In this document: positions 3,861-45,304 of the stretch, piece after piece | Layout of the letters: each line of letters starts with the position of its first letter | Position numbering within the stretch: position 1 is the stretch's first letter | DNA from: Kosakonia radicincitans DSM 16656 | Lineage (GTDB): Bacteria > Pseudomonadota > Gammaproteobacteria > Enterobacterales > Enterobacteriaceae | NCBI RefSeq assembly: GCF_000280495.2 | Contig: NZ_CP018016.1 | Span: 4,092,001-4,156,000 of the forward strand | Reading direction: 5' to 3' | Length of the DNA: 64,000 nucleotides | Translations under genes and position numbers: made by a program | The notes under the pieces: model-generated | Databases searched by the model: none | Told to the model about the DNA's origin: nothing | Seen by the model: only the letters and a program-made list of their open reading frames with translations

Positions 3861-4672
3861 CCGATTTATCTTCCCGTTTGCGCGGCGCAGACTTAACGCT
3901 GGGTTATGGCAAAAAAATCATTGCCGAGCAGCTAAGCGTTGCCATTCCCGACGGCCATTTCACCGCCATTATCGGCCCCAACGGCTGCGGTAAATCAACG
4001 CTGCTGCGCACGCTGAGCCGCCTGATGACGCCCGCACAGGGGCATGTTTATCTCGATGGCGAGCAGATCCAGCGCTTCGCCAGCAAAGAGGTGGCGCGGC
4101 GTGTCGGGCTGCTGGCGCAAAACGCCACCACGCCGGGCGATATCACCGTGCAGGAGCTGGTGGCACGCGGTCGCTACCCGCATCAGCCGCTGTTCACCCG
4201 CTGGCGTAAAGAGGATGAAGACGCCGTGGCGCGGGCGATGAAAGCCACCGGCATGGATTCGCTGGCCAGCCAGAGTGTCGATACGCTCTCCGGCGGCCAG
4301 CGGCAACGGGCGTGGATTGCGATGGTGCTGGCGCAGGAGACGGCCATCATGCTGCTCGATGAACCCACCACCTGGCTCGATATCAGCTACCAGATCGATC
4401 TGCTGGAGTTGTTAAGCGCGCTGAACCGCGAACAGGGTTATACGCTGGCGGCGGTGCTGCATGATTTGAATCAGGCCTGCCGCTACGCCACGCATCTGAT
4501 TGCACTGCGCGATGGCAAAATTGTCGCGCAGGGCGCGCCCAAAGAGATTGTCACCGCCGAATTGATAGAAGCGGTCTACGGTCTGCGCTGCATGATCATT
4601 GACGATCCGGTGGCGCATACGCCGCTGGTGGTGCCGCTGGGGCGCAGCGGAATAGAGTCCCGAAAGACTTAG
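3857..4672 (+). CDS. fepC: Ferric enterobactin ABC ATPase FepC
   Basis: ATP-binding subunit of FepDGC, 271 residues as in E. coli, starting MTDLSSRLRG at the ATG that overlaps the fepG stop. Walker A is GPNGCGKST, the signature is LSGGQRQR, and Walker B is IMLLDEPTTWLD; the H-loop histidine is in AVLHDLNQACRYA. An in-frame extension reaching back into fepG is rejected. The gene converges on entF. In E. coli fepE lies in this gap, but here only about 210 bases of repeats and hairpins separate fepC from entF. Confidence 0.97.
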   Translation: MTDLSSRLRGADLTLGYGKKIIAEQLSVAIPDGHFTAIIGPNGCGKSTLLRTLSRLMTPAQGHVYLDGEQIQRFASKEVARRVGLLAQNATTPGDITVQELVARGRYPHQPLFTRWRKEDEDAVARAMKATGMDSLASQSVDTLSGGQRQRAWIAMVLAQETAIMLLDEPTTWLDISYQIDLLELLSALNREQGYTLAAVLHDLNQACRYATHLIALRDGKIVAQGAPKEIVTAELIEAVYGLRCMIIDDPVAHTPLVVPLGRSGIESRKT

Positions 4673-14538: not shown

Positions 14539-15147
14539 ATGTGGTTAAAACAATGGGGTAATGCGCTCGCAGGGTGCGTTGCCCTGTTGCTCACGGCCTG
14601 CACCGTGGTGGATCTGGATGAGAACGGCAAGCCGATTATGCCTGCCGATCCGCATGCCAAAGCCAGCTTTGACAACCAGACGCCGCAGCAGATCGCGCAA
14701 CAAACCTGGCAGGAACGCGTGATCAACGCCGCGCACCAACATGCGCTGAGCGCCGACACGCTGGCCGCCCAACAAAAAAACCCGGCCGCCGCGCCGCAGA
14801 GCGTCTTTGTCCGGCTGACAAGCCAGGTCGAACGCATTGATACCAGTAATGAACGCGAACAGCAGATGCTGATTAACGTTAACGGGCAACCGCTGCCGGT
14901 GCAGCTTGGCCCGGTAATACGCGGTAACGCAATTCGCGATGCTACCGGTTTTAAATTTGAAGACTTTACCAACCAGGTCCAGTTTGCGCAGCTTTCCCGC
15001 GCCTATAACCGTGAAGCAGCAAAACATCTGCCAAAAGTTGACGCCAGCTGGGCCGGAAAACCGGTCACCGTACTGATAGCGGTCACGCTCAGCGGCGGCA
15101 AGCTTGATGACGCCGTGGCACTGGAGTTGCAACAGGAGGCACAGTAA
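14539..15147 (+). CDS. DUF2291 lipoprotein of the sugar ABC operon
   Basis: A 202-residue lipoprotein: hydrophobic leader, lipobox LLTAC with Cys 21 as the lipidated residue, then VVDLDENGKPI. This is the DUF2291 family, which recurs in RbsB/A/C-type sugar transporter operons. Its role is unknown; a periplasmic accessory to the importer is an inference. It has GGAGG 5 bases before ATG, and its TAA stop overlaps the ATG of the ATPase gene (TAATG), so the two are coupled. Confidence 0.8.
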   Translation: MWLKQWGNALAGCVALLLTACTVVDLDENGKPIMPADPHAKASFDNQTPQQIAQQTWQERVINAAHQHALSADTLAAQQKNPAAAPQSVFVRLTSQVERIDTSNEREQQMLINVNGQPLPVQLGPVIRGNAIRDATGFKFEDFTNQVQFAQLSRAYNREAAKHLPKVDASWAGKPVTVLIAVTLSGGKLDDAVALELQQEAQ

Positions 15148-32301: not shown

Positions 32302-33639
32302 TTATTTCGCGAAATGGCTAAATTGCGCGAGAACACGGTCAAAAATGTCCAGGCCTTTATTCACTTCTTCCGCACTCATGGTGCAAGGCGGCACCACGTG
32401 GATGCGGTTTTCGACGATAAAACTCAAAATACCGGCCTGCGTGAGCGCCGCTTTGATGGATCCCATCTCTGCCGCCGCCAGCGGGGTTTTGCTCTGCCGA
32501 TCGCTGACCAGTTCCATCGCCTGGAACATGCCGCGCCCGCGCACGTTGCCAATCAGCTTATGTTTCGCCGCCAGCGCATCAAGCCCCGGACGCAGCACGC
32601 CGTTACCCACCAGCGCCGCATTCTCCACCACTTTCTCATCTTTCATCGCATCCAGCGTGGCGACAATCGCTGCCATTGCCAGCGGATGGCCGGAGTAAGT
32701 CAGACCGCCCGCGAAGAAGTGGTCGTCAAAGTAGCGTGAAATCGGCTCTGAAATCAGTACGCCGCCTGCGGGCGCATAACCGGCGTTAACGCCTTTCGCG
32801 AAGGTGATCAGATCCGGCACGATGCCATCCTGTTCAAAAGCGAACCAGCTACCGGTGCGGCCAAAACCGGCCATCACTTCATCAAGGATCAGCACAATGC
32901 CAAACTCATCGGCCAGCGCGCGCACGCCCTTCATATACCCTTCCGGCGGCACCAGAATACCGGCCGTTCCCGGTACGGATTCGAGCAGGATCGCGGCGAT
33001 AGATGCCGGCCCTTCAACCTCAATCATGCGGCGCAGGTGCGCCAGCGCACGTGTGCACTCTTCGGCTTCCGTCGTCGCGTTGAATTCGCTGCGATAGAGG
33101 TACGGGTTAAAGAAGTGCACATGCCCGCGTGAATATTCGTTCGGTACGCGCCGCCAGTCGCCGGTGGCGGCAATCGCGCTACCGGTATTGCCGTGATAGG
33201 AGCGGTAGGCGGAGAAAATCTTGTCGCGCCCGGTGTAGAGACGCGCCATACGGATGGCGTTTTCGTTGGCATCCGCCCCAGCGTTGGTAAAGAAGACTTT
33301 ACTGAAACCTTCCGGCGCCAGCGAGACAATGCGTTTGGCCGCTTCGCCGCGCGCCAGGTTGGCCGTCGCCGGTGCGATCGTCACCAGTTCGTCAAGCTGT
33401 GCTTTCATCGCCGCCAGCACGCGCGGATGCTGATAACCAATATTAACGTTCACCAGTTGGCTGCTGAAATCGAGATACGTATTGCCTTCGTAGTCCCACA
33501 ACTCACAGCCTTTCGCCCCGGCAATCACCATCGGGTTAAGGTTGCCCTGCATCGACCATGAATGAAACACATACGACCGGTCCAGTTGACGTACGTCGTC
33601 GTTGGTTATCGCCATCTCGCTCTGAAGTGCCAGTTTCAT
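32302..33639 (-). CDS. Class III aminotransferase, probable beta-alanine aminotransferase
   Basis: A 445-residue PLP enzyme of the omega-amino-acid transaminase class. The cofactor lysine is Lys 282 in TFAKGVNAGYAP, preceded by Asp 253 in LILDEVMAGFGRTG; FFTNAGADANENAIR binds the phosphate. In this cluster the expected job is to convert beta-alanine from uracil (or beta-aminoisobutyrate from thymine) to malonic (or methylmalonic) semialdehyde. The start is ATG 33639 after AGGAGCAGGAT; a second ATG eight codons in is possible. It is divergent from the dehydrogenase that would use its product. Substrate assignment is by context. Confidence 0.85.
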   Translation of the reverse strand: MKLALQSEMAITNDDVRQLDRSYVFHSWSMQGNLNPMVIAGAKGCELWDYEGNTYLDFSSQLVNVNIGYQHPRVLAAMKAQLDELVTIAPATANLARGEAAKRIVSLAPEGFSKVFFTNAGADANENAIRMARLYTGRDKIFSAYRSYHGNTGSAIAATGDWRRVPNEYSRGHVHFFNPYLYRSEFNATTEAEECTRALAHLRRMIEVEGPASIAAILLESVPGTAGILVPPEGYMKGVRALADEFGIVLILDEVMAGFGRTGSWFAFEQDGIVPDLITFAKGVNAGYAPAGGVLISEPISRYFDDHFFAGGLTYSGHPLAMAAIVATLDAMKDEKVVENAALVGNGVLRPGLDALAAKHKLIGNVRGRGMFQAMELVSDRQSKTPLAAAEMGSIKAALTQAGILSFIVENRIHVVPPCTMSAEEVNKGLDIFDRVLAQFSHFAK

Positions 33640-33725
33640 ATCCTGCTCCTCTCATGCCGTTATTGTTGTCCGTATCATGCGGCGCGCGGGCAAACCGCGG
33701 ATAGAGCCAGTCGTGTTAGCAACAT

Positions 33726-34589
<864 letters not shown>

Positions 34590-34848: not shown

Positions 34849-35034
34849 ACTGGCACGCAGAAATACGACAACTGTCACTAACCACGCGCGCTGCGCCTGT
34901 TTATGCTGCCTTTTCCCACCCCGATCCCCCTCCCTGCCCCATCACAAAGCAAACGCGCCGACATCTGCACTAAATTGATGAGTAAAATTCATTATCGTGC
35001 AGCCAAATGCAGTAAAAATGCGGAAATTAACCCC

Positions 35035-35050
35035 TGGCACAAAAATGGCA
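35035..35050 (+). promoter_or_regulatory. Sigma-54-type promoter of the importer operon
   Basis: TGGCACAAAAATGGCA has the -24 GG and -12 GC exactly 10 bases apart, matching TGGCAC-N5-TTGCA except for one base. It ends 48 bases before the ATPase start. Sigma-54 control is expected for nitrogen scavenging and is mirrored by the preT promoter. Confidence 0.7.
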
Positions 35051-35065
35051 TGGTGAAAAAGAAAC

Positions 35066-35081
35066 CTAACCAGTTAGTCAA
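35066..35081. promoter_or_regulatory. RutR-like operator before the importer operon
   Basis: CTAACCAGTTAGTCAA agrees with the RutR palindrome TTGACCA-N2-TGGTCAA at 11 of 14 defined positions. It lies 15 bases after the sigma-54 box, at or just past the likely transcription start, where a repressor would act. The RutR-like gene at 38986 is in the same cluster. Confidence 0.6.
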
Positions 35082-35098
35082 AAAACAGGGGGAGCAGG

Positions 35099-35938
35099 AT
35101 GAGCCAGGTGATGTTTGCTGAGGAGAGCGCAGTGGTGTCCTTAAAGACCGCCAGCGCCACAGCGCGGCCCGCCATAACCGTCAGTCAGGCCAGCGTTATC
35201 TATCCGGCGGCGGATAAACCCGTACACGCGTTACAGGACATTAATCTGACGATTCGCCAGGGCGAGTTTGTCTCGTTTATCGGGCCATCCGGCTGCGGCA
35301 AAACCACCCTGTTGCGGGTTATTGCCGATCTTGAGCCGATTACCTCCGGCGATGTGCTGGTGAACGATATGTCGCCGTCGGAAGCGCGCCAGGCGGGGGC
35401 TTATGGCTATGTCTTCCAGGCACCGGTGCTGCTGCCGTGGCGCACCGTGATAGCCAATGTCAAATTGCCGTTGCAGATCCAGGGCGTACCGCCAGAACGC
35501 TGCGATGAAATCGCCCGTGAGCAGCTTTCACGCGTTGGCCTGAAGGGTTTTGAGAAAAAATACCCGTGGCAGCTCTCGGGCGGCATGCAACAGCGCGTGT
35601 CTATCGCGCGGGCGCTCGGCTTTGAGCCGAAAATTTTAATGATGGATGAACCCTTCGGCGCGCTCGATGAACTGACCCGCGACAACCTCAATCAGCAGCT
35701 TCAGCAACTGTGGTACAACGAGCAGCGCACGATGGTGTTTGTTACCCACTCCATTGCCGAAGCGGTCTATCTGTCGACCAAAATCGTGGTGATGTCGCCG
35801 CGTCCGGGGCGCATCGTGAAGGTGATCGACTCCCCGCTTCCGGCACAGCGCGATTTGGCGATCCGCAATACGCCCGCGTTCCTCGCACTGGCGCAGGAGG
35901 TGCGCGAAGCGCTGGTGGAGGGACATCATGATCGCTGA
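35099..35938 (+). CDS. Pyrimidine-type ABC importer ATPase (SsuB/ThiZ class)
   Basis: A 279-residue ATPase of the nitrate/sulfonate/taurine class. Walker A is GPSGCGKTT at 62-70, the signature is LSGGMQQR, and Walker B is ILMMDEPFGALDE. About 25 extra N-terminal residues precede the usual domain start. GGGGGAG lies 5 bases before ATG. With its two permeases and the NMT1-like binding protein it probably imports uracil, thymine or a related pyrimidine. Confidence 0.87.
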   Translation: MSQVMFAEESAVVSLKTASATARPAITVSQASVIYPAADKPVHALQDINLTIRQGEFVSFIGPSGCGKTTLLRVIADLEPITSGDVLVNDMSPSEARQAGAYGYVFQAPVLLPWRTVIANVKLPLQIQGVPPERCDEIAREQLSRVGLKGFEKKYPWQLSGGMQQRVSIARALGFEPKILMMDEPFGALDELTRDNLNQQLQQLWYNEQRTMVFVTHSIAEAVYLSTKIVVMSPRPGRIVKVIDSPLPAQRDLAIRNTPAFLALAQEVREALVEGHHDR

Positions 35939-36809
35939 GCGGCGTCTTATTGCGAACGCACTGCCGGTGGGCATGGTGCTGCTGGTCGCGCTGGTGCTGT
36001 GGTATTTGCTGGCGCTGGCGCTGAATGCGCCCGGCGTGATTGACCGCGTACTGGCCCCGCGCGGCGCGTGGAATTATCACGATATGATGCAGGCCGCGCT
36101 GAATGCCAGCCGTCCGCTGCTGCCCGCACCGCACCAGATTGCCATCGATATCTGGAACAGCATCACCCAGTGGCCGCTTACCTCACCGCGCAACCTGCTG
36201 TTGCATACCTGGGTCACCGCCAGCGCAGCGCTGACGGGTTTTGCCATGGGGGTGGTACTCGGCGTGGTGCTGGCGGTGTGCATTGTTCACTCGCGCACAC
36301 TGGATAAAGCGCTACTGCCGTGGATCGTCGCCTCGCAAACCATTCCGGTACTGGCGATAGCGCCCATTGTGCTGATCATTCTGGGCAGCGTCGGCATCAC
36401 CGGCATGCTGCCAAAAGCCACTATCGCCATGTATCTCTGCTTCTTCCCGGTCACCATCGCCACCGTGCAGGGACTGCGCTCGCCGCAAAAAATGGAGATG
36501 GAACTGATGCACACCTGGGCTGCCCGGCGGGTCGATATCTTCTGGACTGTGCGCCTGCCCTCTTCGCTGCCGTATCTGTTTCCGGCGTTTCGCGTGGCGA
36601 TTGCCAGCGGGCTGGTCGGTACGATGGTGGCCGAGTTGCCCACCGGGGCACAGGCCGGGCTGGGCGCGCGGCTGCTGACTGGCTCCTACTATGGCAACAC
36701 CATTCAGATCTGGTCGGCGCTGGTAATGGCCTCGCTGCTTGGGCTGGCGTTAACCGGGCTGGTCACGCTCACGGAACGGCTGGTGATGCGCCAGCGTAAG
36801 GGGGGATGA
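35928..36809 (+). CDS. ABC importer permease 1, SsuC/ThiX class
   Basis: A 293-residue permease with six or so helices. It carries the family loop WAARRVDIFWTVRLPSSLPYLFPAFRVAIASGLVGTMVAELP, which contacts the ATPase and ends at a typical Glu. A periplasmic stretch (residues 30-75) precedes TM2. It overlaps the ATPase gene by 11 bases. Confidence 0.88.
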   Translation: MIAERRLIANALPVGMVLLVALVLWYLLALALNAPGVIDRVLAPRGAWNYHDMMQAALNASRPLLPAPHQIAIDIWNSITQWPLTSPRNLLLHTWVTASAALTGFAMGVVLGVVLAVCIVHSRTLDKALLPWIVASQTIPVLAIAPIVLIILGSVGITGMLPKATIAMYLCFFPVTIATVQGLRSPQKMEMELMHTWAARRVDIFWTVRLPSSLPYLFPAFRVAIASGLVGTMVAELPTGAQAGLGARLLTGSYYGNTIQIWSALVMASLLGLALTGLVTLTERLVMRQRKGG

Positions 36810-37885
36810 TGAAACGCACTGCGATACCCGGCACGTTTTTGCTGGTCGGCGCGCTGCTGTTGTTGATGCTGTCGCTGATCCAGTTGAGTGGGCAAACGCC
36901 GTTATCGGCTCCGCTGTTGCTGGTCAATATCCTGCTGGTGCTGTGCGCGCTGGCAGGGTGCACCACCACCTTCAGCCTTCTGCGCGGCGCTCTGTTCGCC
37001 GTCACTTTGCTGGCGAGCGTACTGTGGCTGGCGTGGCAGCCGATTCACGGTCTGACGCTGGGCGCCGTAGCGCTGCTGGCGATGGTCAGCGTGCAACGTC
37101 TGGCGCGCTCAACGCTTCCGGCAGCCAGCGTCGCGGCGCTGCTCGGCCTGTGGCTACTGTGGTTCTGGCAGATTCTGGTCACCGGTTTTGCCGTTCCGCA
37201 GGTCATTCTGCCCGCGCCGCTGGACATTCTTGCCGCGCTGGTCAACAGCGTTCCGCTGCTGGCGGGCGATGTGCTGCAAACGGTGATCAAATCCGTGCTG
37301 GCAGGTTATCTGCTCGGTAGCGGGCTGGGGATTGGCGTGGCGATTCTTATCGACCGCCTGCCGTTTTTACAACGCGGATTATTGCCGGTAGCCAGCCTTA
37401 CCAGCACCGTACCGCTGGTCGGCGTCGCGCCGATTGCGGTGATGTGGTTTGGCTTTGACTGGCCTTCCAAGGCCGCCGTGGTCATGCTGGTGACCTTCTT
37501 CCCGGCGCTGGTCAGTACGCTGGCCGGGTTAAAAGCCAGCGGCAAGCTGGAGCAGGAACTGATGTATTGCTATGCCGCCACGCCGGGGCAAAGCCTGCGG
37601 GTGCTGCGTCTGCCTGCCGCGATGCCGTTTATTTTCAGCGCTCTGAAAGTGAATGCCACACTGTCGCTTATCACCGCGATTGTGGCGGAATTTTTCGGCT
37701 CGCCAACCGCCGGACTGGGCTTTCGCATCTCCACCGAGTCGGCGCGCATGCATATGCCGGTAGTGTGGTCGGCAATTGTTGTCGCCTCGATCGCCGGTTC
37801 CCTGTTCTACAGCCTGCTGGTTCAGCTCGACCGGCGCGTGAATTTCTGGCACCCCACGCTACGTGGGAGCGCCGCTCAGAAGTAA
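36809..37885 (+). CDS. ABC importer permease 2, SsuC/ThiX class
   Basis: A 358-residue second permease. An unusual N-terminal block of four hydrophobic segments (residues about 8-115) precedes the standard BPD domain (ILPAPLDILAALVNSVP onward), with the loop CYAATPGQSLRVLRLPAAMPFIFSALKVNATLSLITAIVAEFFG. Two ATGs are adjacent; 36809 is better spaced from the G run. A heterodimeric permease pair is less common in this ABC class. Confidence 0.86.
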   Translation: MKRTAIPGTFLLVGALLLLMLSLIQLSGQTPLSAPLLLVNILLVLCALAGCTTTFSLLRGALFAVTLLASVLWLAWQPIHGLTLGAVALLAMVSVQRLARSTLPAASVAALLGLWLLWFWQILVTGFAVPQVILPAPLDILAALVNSVPLLAGDVLQTVIKSVLAGYLLGSGLGIGVAILIDRLPFLQRGLLPVASLTSTVPLVGVAPIAVMWFGFDWPSKAAVVMLVTFFPALVSTLAGLKASGKLEQELMYCYAATPGQSLRVLRLPAAMPFIFSALKVNATLSLITAIVAEFFGSPTAGLGFRISTESARMHMPVVWSAIVVASIAGSLFYSLLVQLDRRVNFWHPTLRGSAAQK

Positions 37886-37930
37886 AACAATTAGCACCTA
37901 TCCAGGTTCACTAACCCGAGGAGTTCTCTA

Positions 37931-38944
37931 ATGATAAAAAGTTTCGCTTTGCGCCGGGGTTTGTTGCTGGCGGCAATGTCTGTACTGGCCTTTCAGGCGG
38001 CCGCCGCCGAGAAAGTCACACTGCAACTGAAGTGGCTGCCGCAATCACAGTTCGCCGGTTATTACGTGGCGCAGCAAAAAGGGTTTTATCAGGATGAAGG
38101 GCTGGATGTCACCATTAAACCCGGCGGCACGGATATCTCCCCGGTGCAGGTGATTGCCGGTAAATCCGCCGATGTCATTGTCGACTGGCTGCCGGATGCG
38201 CTGGCCTCGCGCGAAGCGGGCGTGCCGCTGGTGAATATCGCCCAGGTGTACGATCGTTCCGGGATGATGCTGACCTGTAAAAAATCGAGCGGCATCAAAA
38301 CCCCGGCCGATTTCAAAGGCAAAACCCTTGGCGTCTGGTACGGCGGCAATGAATACCCGTTCTTTAACTGGATGAACAAGCTGGGCCTCAAACCGGGTAA
38401 AGACATCACCATTTTAAAACAGGGCTTTAACGTTGATCCGCTGTTACAGGATCAGGCCGCCTGTATTTCGACCATGAACTACAACGAATACTGGCAGTTG
38501 ATCGACGCCGGGCTGAAGCAGGACGACTTAATCACCTTCCCGTATGAGGATCAGGGCGTTTCTACGCTGGAAGATGGGCTGTATGTCCTCGGTTCCGATC
38601 TGAAAGATCCGGCGTTTGTCAGCAAAATGGCGAAATTCCTCAAAGCGTCGTTTAAAGGCTGGGATTACGCGGTGAAACACCCGGATGAAGCGGCGAAAAT
38701 CGTGGTGGCAGAAGATGCCTCCGGCGCTGCCACGGAAGAGGTGCAGACTCGCCAGATGGAGAACGTGGCGAAGCTTATTACCAACGCCAATACGCCGAAA
38801 ATCGGCTATCTCGATCCGGCCGCGTACCGTCGCACCATCGACGTGTTGCTGCACAGCGGTGGCGATACGCCGGTTATCAAGAAAGATCCGGGCGACAGCG
38901 GTATGACGCACGAAGTCTGGGACGCCGCCGCCAAACTGAAATAA
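37931..38944 (+). CDS. NMT1/THI5-like substrate-binding protein
   Basis: A 337-residue periplasmic protein. The signal peptide ends at QAAAAE. VTLQLKWLPQSQFAGYYVAQQKGFYQDEGLDV is the NMT1/THI5 opening found in binding proteins for pyrimidine-like ligands, and LGVWYGGNEYPFFNWM lies in the cleft. Its place between the importer permeases and the RutR-like gene, inside a pyrimidine catabolic cluster, argues for a pyrimidine ligand. Riboflavin or hydroxymethylpyrimidine are alternatives for the family. Confidence 0.85.
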   Translation: MIKSFALRRGLLLAAMSVLAFQAAAAEKVTLQLKWLPQSQFAGYYVAQQKGFYQDEGLDVTIKPGGTDISPVQVIAGKSADVIVDWLPDALASREAGVPLVNIAQVYDRSGMMLTCKKSSGIKTPADFKGKTLGVWYGGNEYPFFNWMNKLGLKPGKDITILKQGFNVDPLLQDQAACISTMNYNEYWQLIDAGLKQDDLITFPYEDQGVSTLEDGLYVLGSDLKDPAFVSKMAKFLKASFKGWDYAVKHPDEAAKIVVAEDASGAATEEVQTRQMENVAKLITNANTPKIGYLDPAAYRRTIDVLLHSGGDTPVIKKDPGDSGMTHEVWDAAAKLK

Positions 38945-38950
38945 CCCCCG

Positions 38951-38970
38951 CCGCCAGGGAGGGCGGTTTT
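38951..38970 (+). terminator. Terminator between binding protein and RutR-like gene
   Basis: CCGCC-AGGGAG-GGCGG followed by TTTTC, 7 bases after the binding-protein stop. The regulator gene starts 16 bases later, so it may be expressed at a low level by read-through. Confidence 0.65.
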
Positions 38971-38985
38971 CTCACGGAGCACACT

Positions 38986-39633
38986 ATGAATGAGGTTCTT
39001 CTCCACGGCGTGGTGGAGTCACCCGATAAGGGACGCATTCGTCAGGATAACGAAGCCATTATCCTGCCAGCGGCGGAGCGCGTATTTGCCCGCTACGGCT
39101 TTCGCGGCGCGACGATGCAACAGATTGCCGATGCCGCAGGTCTGCCGAAAGCCAATCTGCACTACTACTTCGGCAACAAACACAATCTCTACCTGCGGGT
39201 GCTGGAAAACATTCTCCACGACTGGTTGTCGCCGCTGGAGGGGATCTGCGCCAGCGCCGAGCCGAAAAGCGCGCTGGCGGAGTATGTCGGGCGCAAAATC
39301 CACTTCAGTTTCAGCCGCCCGGAAGCCTCCAAACTCTTTGCCAACGAGATCCTGCAAGGCGCACAGGTTGTGCATCCGTTACTGAAAAGCGAACTGCGAC
39401 AACTGGTGGAAGAGAAAGCGCGCATCCTCGATGGCTGGATTGCCGCCGGTAAAATGCGCACGCTGGATACCACGCACTTCTTCTTTACTGTCTGGTCGAT
39501 GACGCAAACCTATGCCGATTTCGATATCCAGGTGGAAGCCGTCTGCGGCGAAGATGCTCACAGCGACACGATGCAGTCGCGCGCCACGCAGCATGTGCTG
39601 AGCGCCGTCTGGCGCATCTGCGGTCTGGAATAA
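38986..39633 (+). CDS. TetR-family regulator, RutR-like
   Basis: A 215-residue TetR protein. The helix-turn-helix is FRGATMQQIADAAGLPKANLHYYFGNKHNLYL. The C-terminal domain follows RutR closely: PEASKLFANEILQGAQ, LVEEKARILDGWIAAGKM and FFFTVWSMTQTYADF compare with SRLFCMEMLAGAP, LIDEKSALIAGWVKSGKL and MIWASTQHYADFATQVEAV of E. coli RutR. RutR binds uracil and thymine, which release it from DNA. RutR-like operators precede both adjoining operons, so local control by pyrimidines is likely. Confidence 0.88.
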   Translation: MNEVLLHGVVESPDKGRIRQDNEAIILPAAERVFARYGFRGATMQQIADAAGLPKANLHYYFGNKHNLYLRVLENILHDWLSPLEGICASAEPKSALAEYVGRKIHFSFSRPEASKLFANEILQGAQVVHPLLKSELRQLVEEKARILDGWIAAGKMRTLDTTHFFFTVWSMTQTYADFDIQVEAVCGEDAHSDTMQSRATQHVLSAVWRICGLE

Positions 39634-39638
39634 CCTTC

Positions 39639-39688
39639 TTGCTGCTAAATGCAGCAATAATCGGCAAATTTGGTGCGAAATGCACCAA
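39639..39688. promoter_or_regulatory. Pair of matching 19-bp inverted repeats upstream of preT
   Basis: TTGCTGC-TAAAT-GCAGCAA (39639-39657) and TTGGTGC-GAAAT-GCACCAA (39670-39688) are both perfect 7+5+7 palindromes with nearly the same sequence. Their centres are 31 bp apart, three helical turns, and they lie about 90-135 bp upstream of the sigma-54-type promoter, where enhancer proteins bind. A related weaker site occurs at 34997-35015. The half-sites resemble those of NtrC but in inverted order, so the binding protein is unknown. Confidence 0.55.
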
Positions 39689-39772
39689 AATGCGACGATC
39701 ATTTTAGTGCAATCGATCCTGAAGATCCCTGAACCGCTGATTTTGTCTGCCCTGCTGCTGTTGCCGTCAATA

Positions 39773-39788
39773 TGGCACACAAATCGCA
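39773..39788 (+). promoter_or_regulatory. Sigma-54-type promoter of preTA operon
   Basis: TGGCACACAAATCGCA has the -24 GG and -12 GC exactly 10 bases apart. It is followed by TGG, as at 35035. It ends about 50 bases before the preT start. Confidence 0.7.
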
Positions 39789-39805
39789 TGGCTATTTGTG
39801 AAAAC

Positions 39806-39821
39806 TTAACCATCTGGTCAG
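39806..39821. promoter_or_regulatory. RutR-like operator before preT
   Basis: TTAACCATCTGGTCAG agrees with TTGACCA-N2-TGGTCAA at 12 of 14 defined positions. It lies 17 bases after the sigma-54 box, the same arrangement as at 35066, so repression at the start site by the RutR-like protein is likely. Confidence 0.7.
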
Positions 39822-39839
39822 GATTATTCAGGAGGCATG

Positions 39840-41223
39840 ATGAACACACTCGATACGCCGGGGATCTACCCCGGTCGGCTGACGCCCGCGGAGTATGCCC
39901 GTGCGTTCAGCGATTGCGACCCCGCGCTCTCTTCCACACAGGCGGTGCTGGAAGCGGAACGCTGCTACTACTGCTTTGATGCCCCCTGCACCCGCGCCTG
40001 CCCGGCGGAGATCGATGTGCCGAGCTTTATTCAGCGCATCGCGCAGAGTAACGATCGTGGCGCGGCGGAAGTGATCCTGCGGGCCAATATTCTTGGCGGC
40101 ACCTGCTCACGCGTCTGCCCGACCGAAACCCTCTGCGAGCAGGCCTGCGTGCGTAATGCGCAGGATGGCCGTCCGCTGGATATCGCCCGTTTGCAGCGCT
40201 ACGCCACCGATCGCTTTTTCGCCGCTCCCGGCAAACCGCTGTTTACCCGCGCCGCCAGCAGCGGTAAACGCGTGGCGATTGTCGGCGCCGGGCCTGCCGG
40301 GCTGACCGTGGCGCATGCGCTGGCGCTCGCCGGGCATGCGATTGATCTGTTTGATGCCCGCGCGAAAGCTGGTGGTCTGAACGAATACGGTCTGGCCCGT
40401 TACAAAGTGACCGGGGATTTTCCGGCGCTGGAAGTGGAGTGGCTGCTGTCGGTAGGCGGTATCACCCTGCATTGCGGCAAAACGCTGGGCCAGCACTTCA
40501 CGCTGGCGCAACTGCGCGCAGAGTATGACGCGGTATTCCTTGGCACCGGTTTAGCGGGCGTGAATGCGCTCGACAGTGATACGCCAGAGCCGCACGGCGT
40601 GCGCGAAGCCGTCGAGTTTATTGCCGAACTGCGCCAGTGTGCCGATCTCAGCCAGATGCCAGTGGGTCGCAATGTAGTAGTGATTGGCGGCGGAATGACC
40701 GCGGTGGATGCCGCCGTGCAGGCGAAAAAGCTTGGCGCGCGCGAAGTCACCCTGGTTTACCGCCGTGGCGAAAGCCAGATGAAAGCCTCCCTGAAAGAGC
40801 AGCAGTGGGCAAAAGCGTGCGGCGTCACATTGCGCTTTCTCGCCGCGCCGCTGCGCTTTGAGCAGCAGGATAACCGCTTAACCGGCGTCACTTTTTCCCT
40901 CATGCAACAGACCGATGCAGGGCTGACGCCTGGCGGTGAAACCTTCACGCTGGCGGCGGATATGGTGCTGAAAGCGATTGGGCAAACCTACGATCCGCGC
41001 CCGGCGCAGGGCGTGGCATTAAGCGGCGGGCGCATCGCCGTTGACGAGGCAGGACGCACCTCGCTGCCCGGCGTCTGGGCCGGTGGCGACTGCTGCGCAG
41101 GCGGGCTGGATCTCACTGTCGATGCGGTTAAACAGGGCAAAGCCGCCGCCCGCTCCATCCTGCTGGCACTGGCCATTTCACAGGCCGATGCCGCCAATGC
41201 CACCTTTTTCCAGGAGCCGTCTC

Positions 41224-41231
<8 letters not shown>
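39840..41231 (+). CDS. preT: Dihydropyrimidine dehydrogenase subunit, PreT-like
   Basis: Flavin and iron-sulfur subunit that passes electrons from NAD(P)H to PreA, which reduces uracil and thymine. Counting from the first of two adjacent ATGs (39837), cysteines 43, 46, 51, 55 and 90, 94, 100, 104 form the two N-terminal cluster motifs, GAGPAG at 150-155 binds FAD, and VVVIGGGMTAVDAAVQAKKLGA binds the nicotinamide nucleotide. I prefer the second ATG, 39840, because AGGAGG is too close to the first. At about 463 residues it is longer than E. coli PreT (412). It overlaps preA by 8 bases. Confidence 0.93.
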
Positions 41232-44002
<2,771 letters not shown>

Positions 44003-44017: not shown

Positions 44018-45304
44018 ATGAGTGAAACGATCTCCGCGCCGGACGCCGTGGTTGCGACGGGCGACCTGCGTATTAATGGCCAGCGCCTGTGGCAGTCGCT
44101 GATGGATCTGGCGCAAATCGGCGCAACGCCGAAAGGCGGTTGCTGTCGCCTGACGCTCACCGACCTTGATCGCCAGGGGCGCGATTTGGTGGTCGGCTGG
44201 GGCAAAGCGGCCGGGCTGTCGGTGGAAATAGACCAAATCGGCAACGTCTTTATGCGCCGCGCCGGGCGGAATAACAGCCTGCCGCCCATCGTCGCCGGAA
44301 GCCATATCGATACCCAGCCGACCGGCGGCAAATTCGACGGTAACTTTGGCGTGTTATCCGCGCTGGAAGTGATCCGCACGCTCAACGACAACGGCATTGA
44401 AACACAAGCCCCCGTCGAGATGGTGTTCTGGACTAACGAAGAGGGTTCGCGCTTTGTTCCTGTGATGATGGGTTCTGGCGTTTTTGCCGGGATTTTTTCG
44501 CTGGAACACGCCTATGCGGCAACCGATACCGCAGGCAAAACGGTACGCGATGAGCTGTTCAACATTGGCTATGCGGGCGAACATACGCCAGGCCAGCATC
44601 CGATTGGCGCCTATTTTGAAGCGCATATCGAGCAGGGACCGATTCTGGAAGAGCAGGATGTCGCCATCGGCGTGGTGCAGGCGGTGCTGGGGATCCGCTG
44701 GTATGACTGCACGGTGACGGGGATGGAGTCGCACGCTGGCCCAACGCCAATGGCGATGCGCAAAGATGCGCTGCAAGTGGCAACCGGTCTGATGCAGGAA
44801 GTGATCACCATCGCCAACCAGTTTGCCCCGCACGGGCGCGGAACGGTGGGCATGGTGCAGGTGCATCCGAACAGCCGTAACGTGGTGCCGGGCAGCGTCA
44901 CCTTCTCCATCGATTTTCGCAATATGACCGATGCCGAGGTCGATAAGATGGATGCCGCGCTAAAAGCCGTTATCCAGCAAACGGCGCAGAAAACCGGGCT
45001 GGATATCGCTCTGCGCCAGGTGTCGCAGTACCCGGCAGCGCCCTTCCATGCCGATTGCAAAGAGGCTGTACGCCGGGCGGCGCAGCAATTAGGTTATTCT
45101 CATATGGATATTGTTTCCGGCGCCGGACATGACGCCGTATATATGAGCATGCTGGCACCGGCCGGAATGATCTTTATTCCCTGCAAGGACGGCATCAGCC
45201 ATAACGAAATTGAGTATTCGTCGCCAGAACAGGTGAGCGCCGGTGCCAATGTGTTATTGCATGCGATGCTGGAAAAAGCCGGTGTCGTGGCGCGCAATAC
45301 CTGA
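44018..45304 (+). CDS. N-carbamoyl-beta-alanine amidase (M20 carbamoylase)
   Basis: A 428-residue zinc amidase of the hydantoinase/carbamoylase group. Metal ligands His 96 and Asp 108 lie in GSHIDTQPTGGKFDGNFG, and the EE pair 141-142 lies in TNEEGSRF. GMESHAGPTPMAMRKDA marks the dimerisation domain, and SGAGHDA the last metal histidine. It releases carbon dioxide and ammonia to give beta-alanine, step 3. It is the last gene of the preT-preA-hydantoinase-amidase operon and is followed by a strong terminator. Confidence 0.93.
   Translation: MSETISAPDAVVATGDLRINGQRLWQSLMDLAQIGATPKGGCCRLTLTDLDRQGRDLVVGWGKAAGLSVEIDQIGNVFMRRAGRNNSLPPIVAGSHIDTQPTGGKFDGNFGVLSALEVIRTLNDNGIETQAPVEMVFWTNEEGSRFVPVMMGSGVFAGIFSLEHAYAATDTAGKTVRDELFNIGYAGEHTPGQHPIGAYFEAHIEQGPILEEQDVAIGVVQAVLGIRWYDCTVTGMESHAGPTPMAMRKDALQVATGLMQEVITIANQFAPHGRGTVGMVQVHPNSRNVVPGSVTFSIDFRNMTDAEVDKMDAALKAVIQQTAQKTGLDIALRQVSQYPAAPFHADCKEAVRRAAQQLGYSHMDIVSGAGHDAVYMSMLAPAGMIFIPCKDGISHNEIEYSSPEQVSAGANVLLHAMLEKAGVVARNT

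Follow-up and report, generated by a model that had tools for sequence, protein, structure and literature searches.

PydR of Pseudomonas putida is said, in the title of a 2012 publication by Hidese, to be the repressor of the dihydropyrimidine dehydrogenase gene. It would be, like the regulator treated here, a RutR-like TetR protein tied to the reductive pyrimidine pathway, a likeness drawn from that title only. HutC, the repressor at Pseudomonas hut, belongs to a repressor family other than that of the TetR-type PydR. The hut system is similar in principle: sites for HutC, CbrB and NtrC share an intergenic region, and a sigma-54-type activator for nitrogen or carbon is joined to a local repressor which is freed by a pathway metabolite, as described in the accessible part of PMC8871633. 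The rutABCDEFG operon of Escherichia coli possesses a sigma-54 promoter, which appears as a chromatin immunoprecipitation (ChIP) site (PMC4591121) and in a table of RpoN and NtrC targets obtained by systematic evolution of ligands by exponential enrichment (SELEX; PMC8743547), and a RutR box, which is released by pyrimidine (PMC10891134), according to the excerpts available of these sources. RutR and NtrC regulons were rebuilt in Proteobacteria by Leyn (2016), the former in 68 genomes of 13 groups and with a motif varying between taxa; the available portion of that text makes no mention of sigma-54, of a downstream operator or of a pairing of sites, and single sites may be in its database (PMC5343134). 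The present work concerns a stretch of 64,000 nucleotides from Kosakonia radicincitans DSM 16656 (NZ_CP018016.1, positions 4,092,001 to 4,156,000 of the forward strand; "the window"). In it, an importer operon and a preTA operon, the latter for reductive pyrimidine degradation, each carry a predicted sigma-54 promoter which is followed by a RutR-type palindrome. From comparisons of sequences we regard it as highly probable that both operons are under an AND gate, i.e., transcribed by sigma-54 with an upstream activator, held shut by a TetR protein of the PydR type and released by a pyrimidine.

The sigma-54 elements (Table 1) are TGGCACAAAAATGGCA at the importer operon (TGGCAC-AAAAA-TGGCA) and TGGCACACAAATCGCA at the preTA operon (TGGCAC-ACAAA-TCGCA). 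In both, 10 bases separate the GG (-24) and the GC (-12) in a frame resembling TGGCAC-N5-TTGC, the second T of TTGC being G, C or A at promoters of this module. The palindromes follow 15 bases (importer, CTAACCAGTTAGTCAA) and 17 bases (preTA, TTAACCATCTGGTCAG) after the end of the 16-mer and match TTGACCANNTGGTCAA, which we take to be the RutR-box consensus, at 11 and 12 of 14 positions, respectively. The sequences, the distance between GG and GC, the gaps and the scores had been pointed out in the initial annotation, together with a RutR-like gene between the importer operon and preT, and all were borne out. With the GG counted as -25/-24, transcription is predicted to start near 35061 and 39799, in each case 38 bases 5' of the start codon. 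The predicted operators would then extend from about +6 to +21 (importer) and from about +8 to +23 (preTA) and, over the commonest spacings found in relatives (13–19 bases), from about +4 to +25; a few relatives have a spacing of 9 or 12 instead. The top sigma-54-like score of the window was found at 15116-15131, at the end of a coding open reading frame (ORF) and 16 bases before the start of an ATP-binding cassette (ABC) ATPase gene; this match is probably due to chance.

The palindrome by itself is unremarkable. With at most one mismatch it occurs at 114 places in the genome versus 154 for a reversed control pattern, and three further places in the window reach 11/14. Since the reversed control outnumbered the real matches, a genome scan by the palindrome only was uninformative and was abandoned. 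TGGCAC-N5-TNGCANGG is present at three places in the genome, the third being inside a coding ORF. A composite pattern, TGGCAY-N5-TNGC followed by YTRACCANNNNGTYAR 11–25 bases after the GC, had two matches in the genome of 6.1 Mb, both of them the window promoters; 368 other class genomes had none. Among the 295 genomes of the family sample, 20 carried the pattern, at 38 places in total. The composite is real and far above chance. The 20 family genomes bearing it are exactly those with a PydR-type TetR gene (19 intact, one broken, in G028); in the TetR search these genes formed a group at identities of at least 59%, versus a RutR group at about 35–45%. Two modules are present in 18 of the 20, and one each in G141 and G028. 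When the window and 19 stretches of the family sample were inspected, of which three are without an ATPase orthologue and two without preT, the composite was located upstream of 17/17 importer ATPase orthologues and of 18/18 preT genes.

Some of these genomes deserve a remark. The pyd cluster of G028 (L140) and also its rut genes contain broken reading frames; its assembly is rated 49% complete, and sequencing errors are possible. In G141 (L138) and in L019 the binding-protein gene is the only one preceded by the module, and the stretch contains no preT; G141 has RutA and no RutR, and its PydR-type protein may serve the Rut pathway. In L127-L132, L134-L137 and L139 the promoter lies about 160–230 bases before the guessed start of preT, versus 64 in the window; this distance might be due to an extended leader, to a small ORF or to PreT itself being longer.

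From a scan of named genomes the best 80 of 574 loci were kept; 57 were treated as beta- or gammaproteobacterial and 23 as alphaproteobacterial, two of the 23 being unplaced Proteobacteria which stand among the alphaproteobacteria in the tree. Some of these loci are from the same species as genomes of the family sample (e.g., L012 and G189), and the two counts are therefore not independent. A looser test was applied here, i.e., a box with at least 10/14 matches situated 6–29 bases after a sigma-54-like element. It was passed in beta- and gammaproteobacteria by 34 of 37 testable importer ATPase genes, by 17/17 preT genes and by 5/5 URC1-like genes (see below), and in alphaproteobacteria by none (0/6, 0/18 and 0/3, respectively). 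At a threshold of 11/14, the box alone is present in alphaproteobacteria at 15 of 18 preT genes and at all three URC1-like genes. Because the alphaproteobacteria keep the box without the sigma-54 layout, the box belongs to the repressor; the notion that it is a part of the sigma-54 element itself was ruled out for this reason. Starts of operon-internal genes, which served as controls, yielded 1/38, 0/38, 0/41, 0/15, 0/14 and 0/12. Upstream of the TetR gene 2/55 passed, and one of these (L037) resembles a real module. For L029 and L032 to pass, CGGT has to be accepted at -24. The importer misses in beta- and gammaproteobacteria were L048, L056 and L060, the last of which does carry the module according to the pattern search, the looser test having been misled by a poor guess of the gene start. 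This pattern search was applied to 99 sequences (the window, L013-L091 and L122-L140), of which 61 yielded a total of 87 matches. The ATPase gene follows 47 of these matches, preT 33 and the binding-protein gene two (one species twice); the other five stand elsewhere. The reversed control pattern had no match in the 1.32 Mb of the same 99 sequences. The spacing is preserved in relatives whose flanking DNA has diverged. Two Aeromonadaceae loci (L015 and L016) have two boxes which flank the sigma-54 promoter of preT, one ending 2 bases before -24 and the other lying 17 bases after -12.

The initial annotation had named a RutR-like gene as the regulator; membership in the TetR family and the uracil contacts agree with this, but identity with RutR does not. 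The window protein reached 186 bits with the RutR model TIGR03613, less than the curated cut-off of 368; the RutR of the same genome, whose gene is located beside rutA to rutF (rutABCDEF), reached 349 bits and was also under this strict cut-off. In a tree of 51 rows one branch (100/100) separates the 12 RutR rows from all others, the window protein included. The PydR-like proteins of beta- and gammaproteobacteria group together with those of five betaproteobacterial URC-type clusters, in 26 rows; the support, 94/98, falls slightly short of what counts as strong. The gammaproteobacterial rows are nested within the betaproteobacterial ones, long branches such as L086 being unsure, and this nesting hints at a transfer from beta- to gammaproteobacteria. 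An AlphaFold model of the protein (predicted local distance difference test score, pLDDT, 88.8) found its best structure matches in RutR, including complexes with uracil and dihydrouracil. The uracil contacts of RutR (W77, Y97, W167, Q171 and Q179) and two lysines contacting DNA are given in the available part of PMC10891134; the equivalent contacts in the window protein are W80, Y100, W170, Q174 and Q182. The five uracil contacts and both lysines are identical in 39/39 PydR-like and 12/12 RutR rows. Judged by these comparisons, the window regulator is a PydR-type paralogue and not RutR, with an apparently intact uracil pocket. Genes of this type are linked to those of dihydropyrimidine dehydrogenase, namely in the window and, through preT, in 36 of the 80 named loci (17 beta- or gammaproteobacterial, 19 alphaproteobacterial). 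Of 13 module-bearing genomes tested, ten possess the PydR-type protein alone, RutR being absent at E <= 1e-20, and in nine of these ten no RutA was found at E <= 1e-60; therefore, PydR by itself can account for the retention of the operators.

Sigma-54 alone does not imply nitrogen, and the nitrogen reading rests on half-sites of the NtrC type. The sequence TGCACY, which we take to be the NtrC half-site, was counted 60–200 bp upstream of -24, following the removal of duplicates and of loci short of upstream DNA, and with shuffles as background. In gammaproteobacteria it was present at 20/20 importer-type and 22/22 preT promoters, against averages of 4.3 and 4.2 in the shuffles; of the control regions taken further upstream, those of importer-type promoters contained it in 2/20. 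Full NtrC palindromes are weak in the window. A loose NtrC matrix gave too many matches and was replaced by this count, and the glnA promoter of the same genome (stretch L174), taken as a yardstick for NtrC, showed no site with the patterns used. A motif search for another enhancer motif in 40 betaproteobacterial promoters showed nothing clear. The rutA promoter has half-sites at -124 and -90 in this genome, and at -124 in E. coli, where TGCAAC is found at -90. The genome contains the genes for RpoN and NtrC and, besides NtrC, about a dozen further sequences which match the NtrC model in its central part. In the regulon table for NtrC of Burkholderia cenocepacia, as far as it was accessible, dihydropyrimidinase is listed with -3.7, a pyrimidine permease with -3.8 and dihydropyrimidine dehydrogenase with -5.1, values which we interpret as fold changes of the mutant (PMC5491218). 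A Pseudomonas stutzeri ntrC mutant was impaired on uracil and thymine, according to the part of PMC8443478 available.

The following mechanism is proposed. Both operons would be driven by their sigma-54 promoters and activated from upstream, most likely by NtrC. A dimer of the PydR-type TetR protein, sitting immediately 3' of the start at about +4 to +25, would hold each operon shut, until a pyrimidine (uracil or thymine, perhaps dihydrouracil) fills the RutR-like pocket and the repressor is released; transcription would thus require both nitrogen shortage and substrate. The footprint of the sigma-54 closed complex is commonly placed at about -35 to -5. Because the operator is situated downstream of this footprint, PydR probably blocks opening or escape and not the binding of polymerase, which could wait in place as a closed complex beside the bound repressor. 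The module is very probably functional; we infer binding, ligand, activator, start sites and AND logic from sequence data. AND logic had already been suggested in the initial annotation. Its two inputs find support in the conservation, the strict co-occurrence with the TetR gene and the intact uracil pocket; RutR as the repressor has to be replaced by the PydR-type protein, and the derivation of a nitrogen input from sigma-54 alone has to be given up.

Several other explanations may be considered. The probability that chance alone produced these matches, the consensus sequences being loose, would appear to be negligible: a palindrome which by itself is no commoner than its reversed control might be so explained, but not a composite which none of the 368 other class genomes contains and whose spacing is preserved in relatives with diverged flanks. 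The operators could also serve canonical RutR, which would then run both rut and the reductive pathway, the local TetR protein doing something else or only helping. The box does resemble a RutR box, the genome has RutR, and a second match, of the RutR type, occurs in nine of the 20 family genomes with the module; however, the module tracks the PydR-type gene and persists in the ten genomes without RutR, and we consider this explanation very unlikely. An activator other than NtrC, i.e., another enhancer-binding protein responding to a second signal which is not nitrogen shortage, is in our opinion unlikely. It would agree with the lack of half-site enrichment in betaproteobacteria and with the presence of about a dozen further sequences resembling the central part of NtrC, but not easily with half-sites at all counted gammaproteobacterial promoters and at the rutA promoter, nor with the pyrimidine genes having negative values in the accessible B. 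cenocepacia table (PMC5491218) and the impaired ntrC mutant described in the available part of the P. stutzeri paper (PMC8443478).

There is a small but real chance that PydR, instead of blocking initiation, activates transcription or obstructs elongation as a roadblock. In favour of this, an operator inside the transcribed leader permits a roadblock, and RutR is described as aiding carAB expression in the available text of PMC10891134. Against it, the PydR of P. putida is reportedly a repressor (by title only), and the narrow spacing, mostly 13–19 bases, suggests coupling to initiation, because the place of a roadblock within the leader would be free. As to the preferred reading, that of a sigma-54 gate held by PydR and released by pyrimidine, the following observations weigh against it. 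The importer operons of L048 and L056 are without the module. One of the two G028 promoters is without the first T, the importer promoter of the broken cluster reading CGGCAC. In the control region further upstream of gammaproteobacterial preT promoters half-sites occur in 9/22, which is not low, and in betaproteobacteria they are at background (5/27, 2/9 and 0/5). Finally, where both proteins occur, RutR might bind these boxes, too.

The features of the locus are listed in Table 1. Divergent genes for a class III aminotransferase and a YdfG-like dehydrogenase are present at 32302-34589, and their products could carry beta-alanine onward; the scan of the window detected no module between the two (33640-33821).

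Table 1. Predicted regulatory sites and genes of the pyrimidine locus (positions in the window)
Feature	Position	Strand	Basis or remark
Candidate enhancer, NtrC-type half-site TGCACTA	34966..34972	+	69 bp upstream of importer -24
Predicted sigma-54 promoter (-24/-12), importer operon	35035..35050	+	Pattern, conserved in alignment
Predicted PydR-type operator, importer operon	35066..35081	+	Pattern, conservation
Importer ABC ATPase, first gene of importer operon	35099..35938	+	Annotation searches
Two importer permeases	35928-36809, 36806-37885	+	Annotation searches
Binding protein, NMT1/THI5 type	37931..38944	+	Nearest solved structures include formyl-aminopyrimidine-binding protein
RutR-like TetR repressor gene, PydR type	38986..39633	+	Profile, tree, model, pocket residues
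Candidate enhancer, half-sites GGTGC and TGCACCA facing each other	39672..39687	+	TGCACCA 92 bp upstream of preTA -24
Predicted sigma-54 promoter, preTA operon	39773..39788	+	Pattern, conserved in alignment
Predicted PydR-type operator, preTA operon	39806..39821	+	Pattern, conservation
preT-like subunit, dihydropyrimidine dehydrogenase	39837..41231	+	Similarity
preA subunit, dihydropyrimidine dehydrogenase	41296..42528	+	Over curated cut-off
Dihydropyrimidinase	42554..44002	+	Over curated cut-off
Hydantoinase/carbamoylase-family amidase, beta-ureidopropionase-like by context	44018..45304	+	Profile and similarity

Twelve RutR stretches were examined for comparison with rut, and four of these contain rutA (from this genome, E. 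coli K-12 and two relatives). In 4/4 the RutR box (10–12 of 14) starts 78–80 bp upstream of the -24 TGG, 80 bp in E. coli, and it adjoins the half-site at -90; RutR may interfere with the activator there. A first scan of rut promoters, in which 1/11 RutR loci passed, was discarded, its outcome being explained by only 4/12 stretches holding rutA, and those four agree. The operon of E. coli thus shares with the present module a sigma-54 promoter, a RutR box and release by pyrimidine, but its box is located upstream of -24 and not downstream of the start, and both the pathway and the repressor clade are different. It had been assumed at the outset that the locus represents a reductive pathway rather than the Rut pathway. 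The former is correct; the exclusion of Rut is not, and "as well as" would be more appropriate, since the genome has RutR and rutABCDEF, and E. coli rut also combines sigma-54 with a RutR box. In the rut operon of this genome (L173) no forward ORF of the size of RutG follows rutF after position 4501; a search with the RutG model found only weaker permease matches, the E. coli control being under the cut-off as well. The principle is ordinary, being already known from sigma-54 with RutR at rut, from PydR in P. putida and from HutC with NtrC at hut. The geometry of a downstream operator and the service to several pathways look new, as no description of such an operator, or of its constant linkage to sigma-54 in beta- and gammaproteobacterial relatives, was found in the open-access literature searched.

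Besides the importer and preT genes, four of the five other matches of the pattern search (in L061, L062, L063 and L071) stand before a gene resembling GTP cyclohydrolase II, with genes resembling DUF1688 and uracil phosphoribosyltransferase nearby; the remaining match, on the minus strand of L061, is chance-like. We take the three genes to be URC1, URC4 and URC6, respectively. In L062, and for this locus only, the Pfam domains were confirmed, with GTP-cyclohydrolase-II-like, DUF1688 and uracil phosphoribosyltransferase genes in a row. L067 contains a URC-type cluster, too, with a weaker box. These clusters adjoin a PydR-type gene in L061, L062, L063, L067 and L071 (betaproteobacteria) and in L078, L080 and L082 (alphaproteobacteria); sigma-54 element and box are present in the five former loci, and the box alone in the three latter. 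By domains and similarity, with L062 as an example, the gene set would appear to be that of the URC uracil pathway of yeast, except that here it is bacterial, is located beside a PydR-type gene and possesses the sigma-54/operator module in the five betaproteobacterial loci. A bacterial URC-type cluster under the predicted control of sigma-54 and a TetR protein looks new, no description having been found in the same literature.

We are somewhat inclined to view the module as a portable gate: one clade of RutR-like proteins in beta- and gammaproteobacteria, with its operator tied to a position just downstream of sigma-54 starts, would have been fitted to three unrelated gene sets (importer, reductive and URC-type), where it would hold a pre-bound polymerase closed, so that the same AND logic would have been built twice, here in a manner unlike that of rut with its upstream box. 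It could then be predicted from the sequence when bacteria draw nitrogen from pyrimidine bases by two pathways, and the bacterial URC-type clusters would gain a testable regulator and inducer. Also, a natural series with the same inputs would become available, in which the repressor is positioned upstream at rut promoters and downstream at those of the pyd and URC types; this series bears on the question of how a TetR repressor may silence a sigma-54 promoter which polymerase can occupy before activation.

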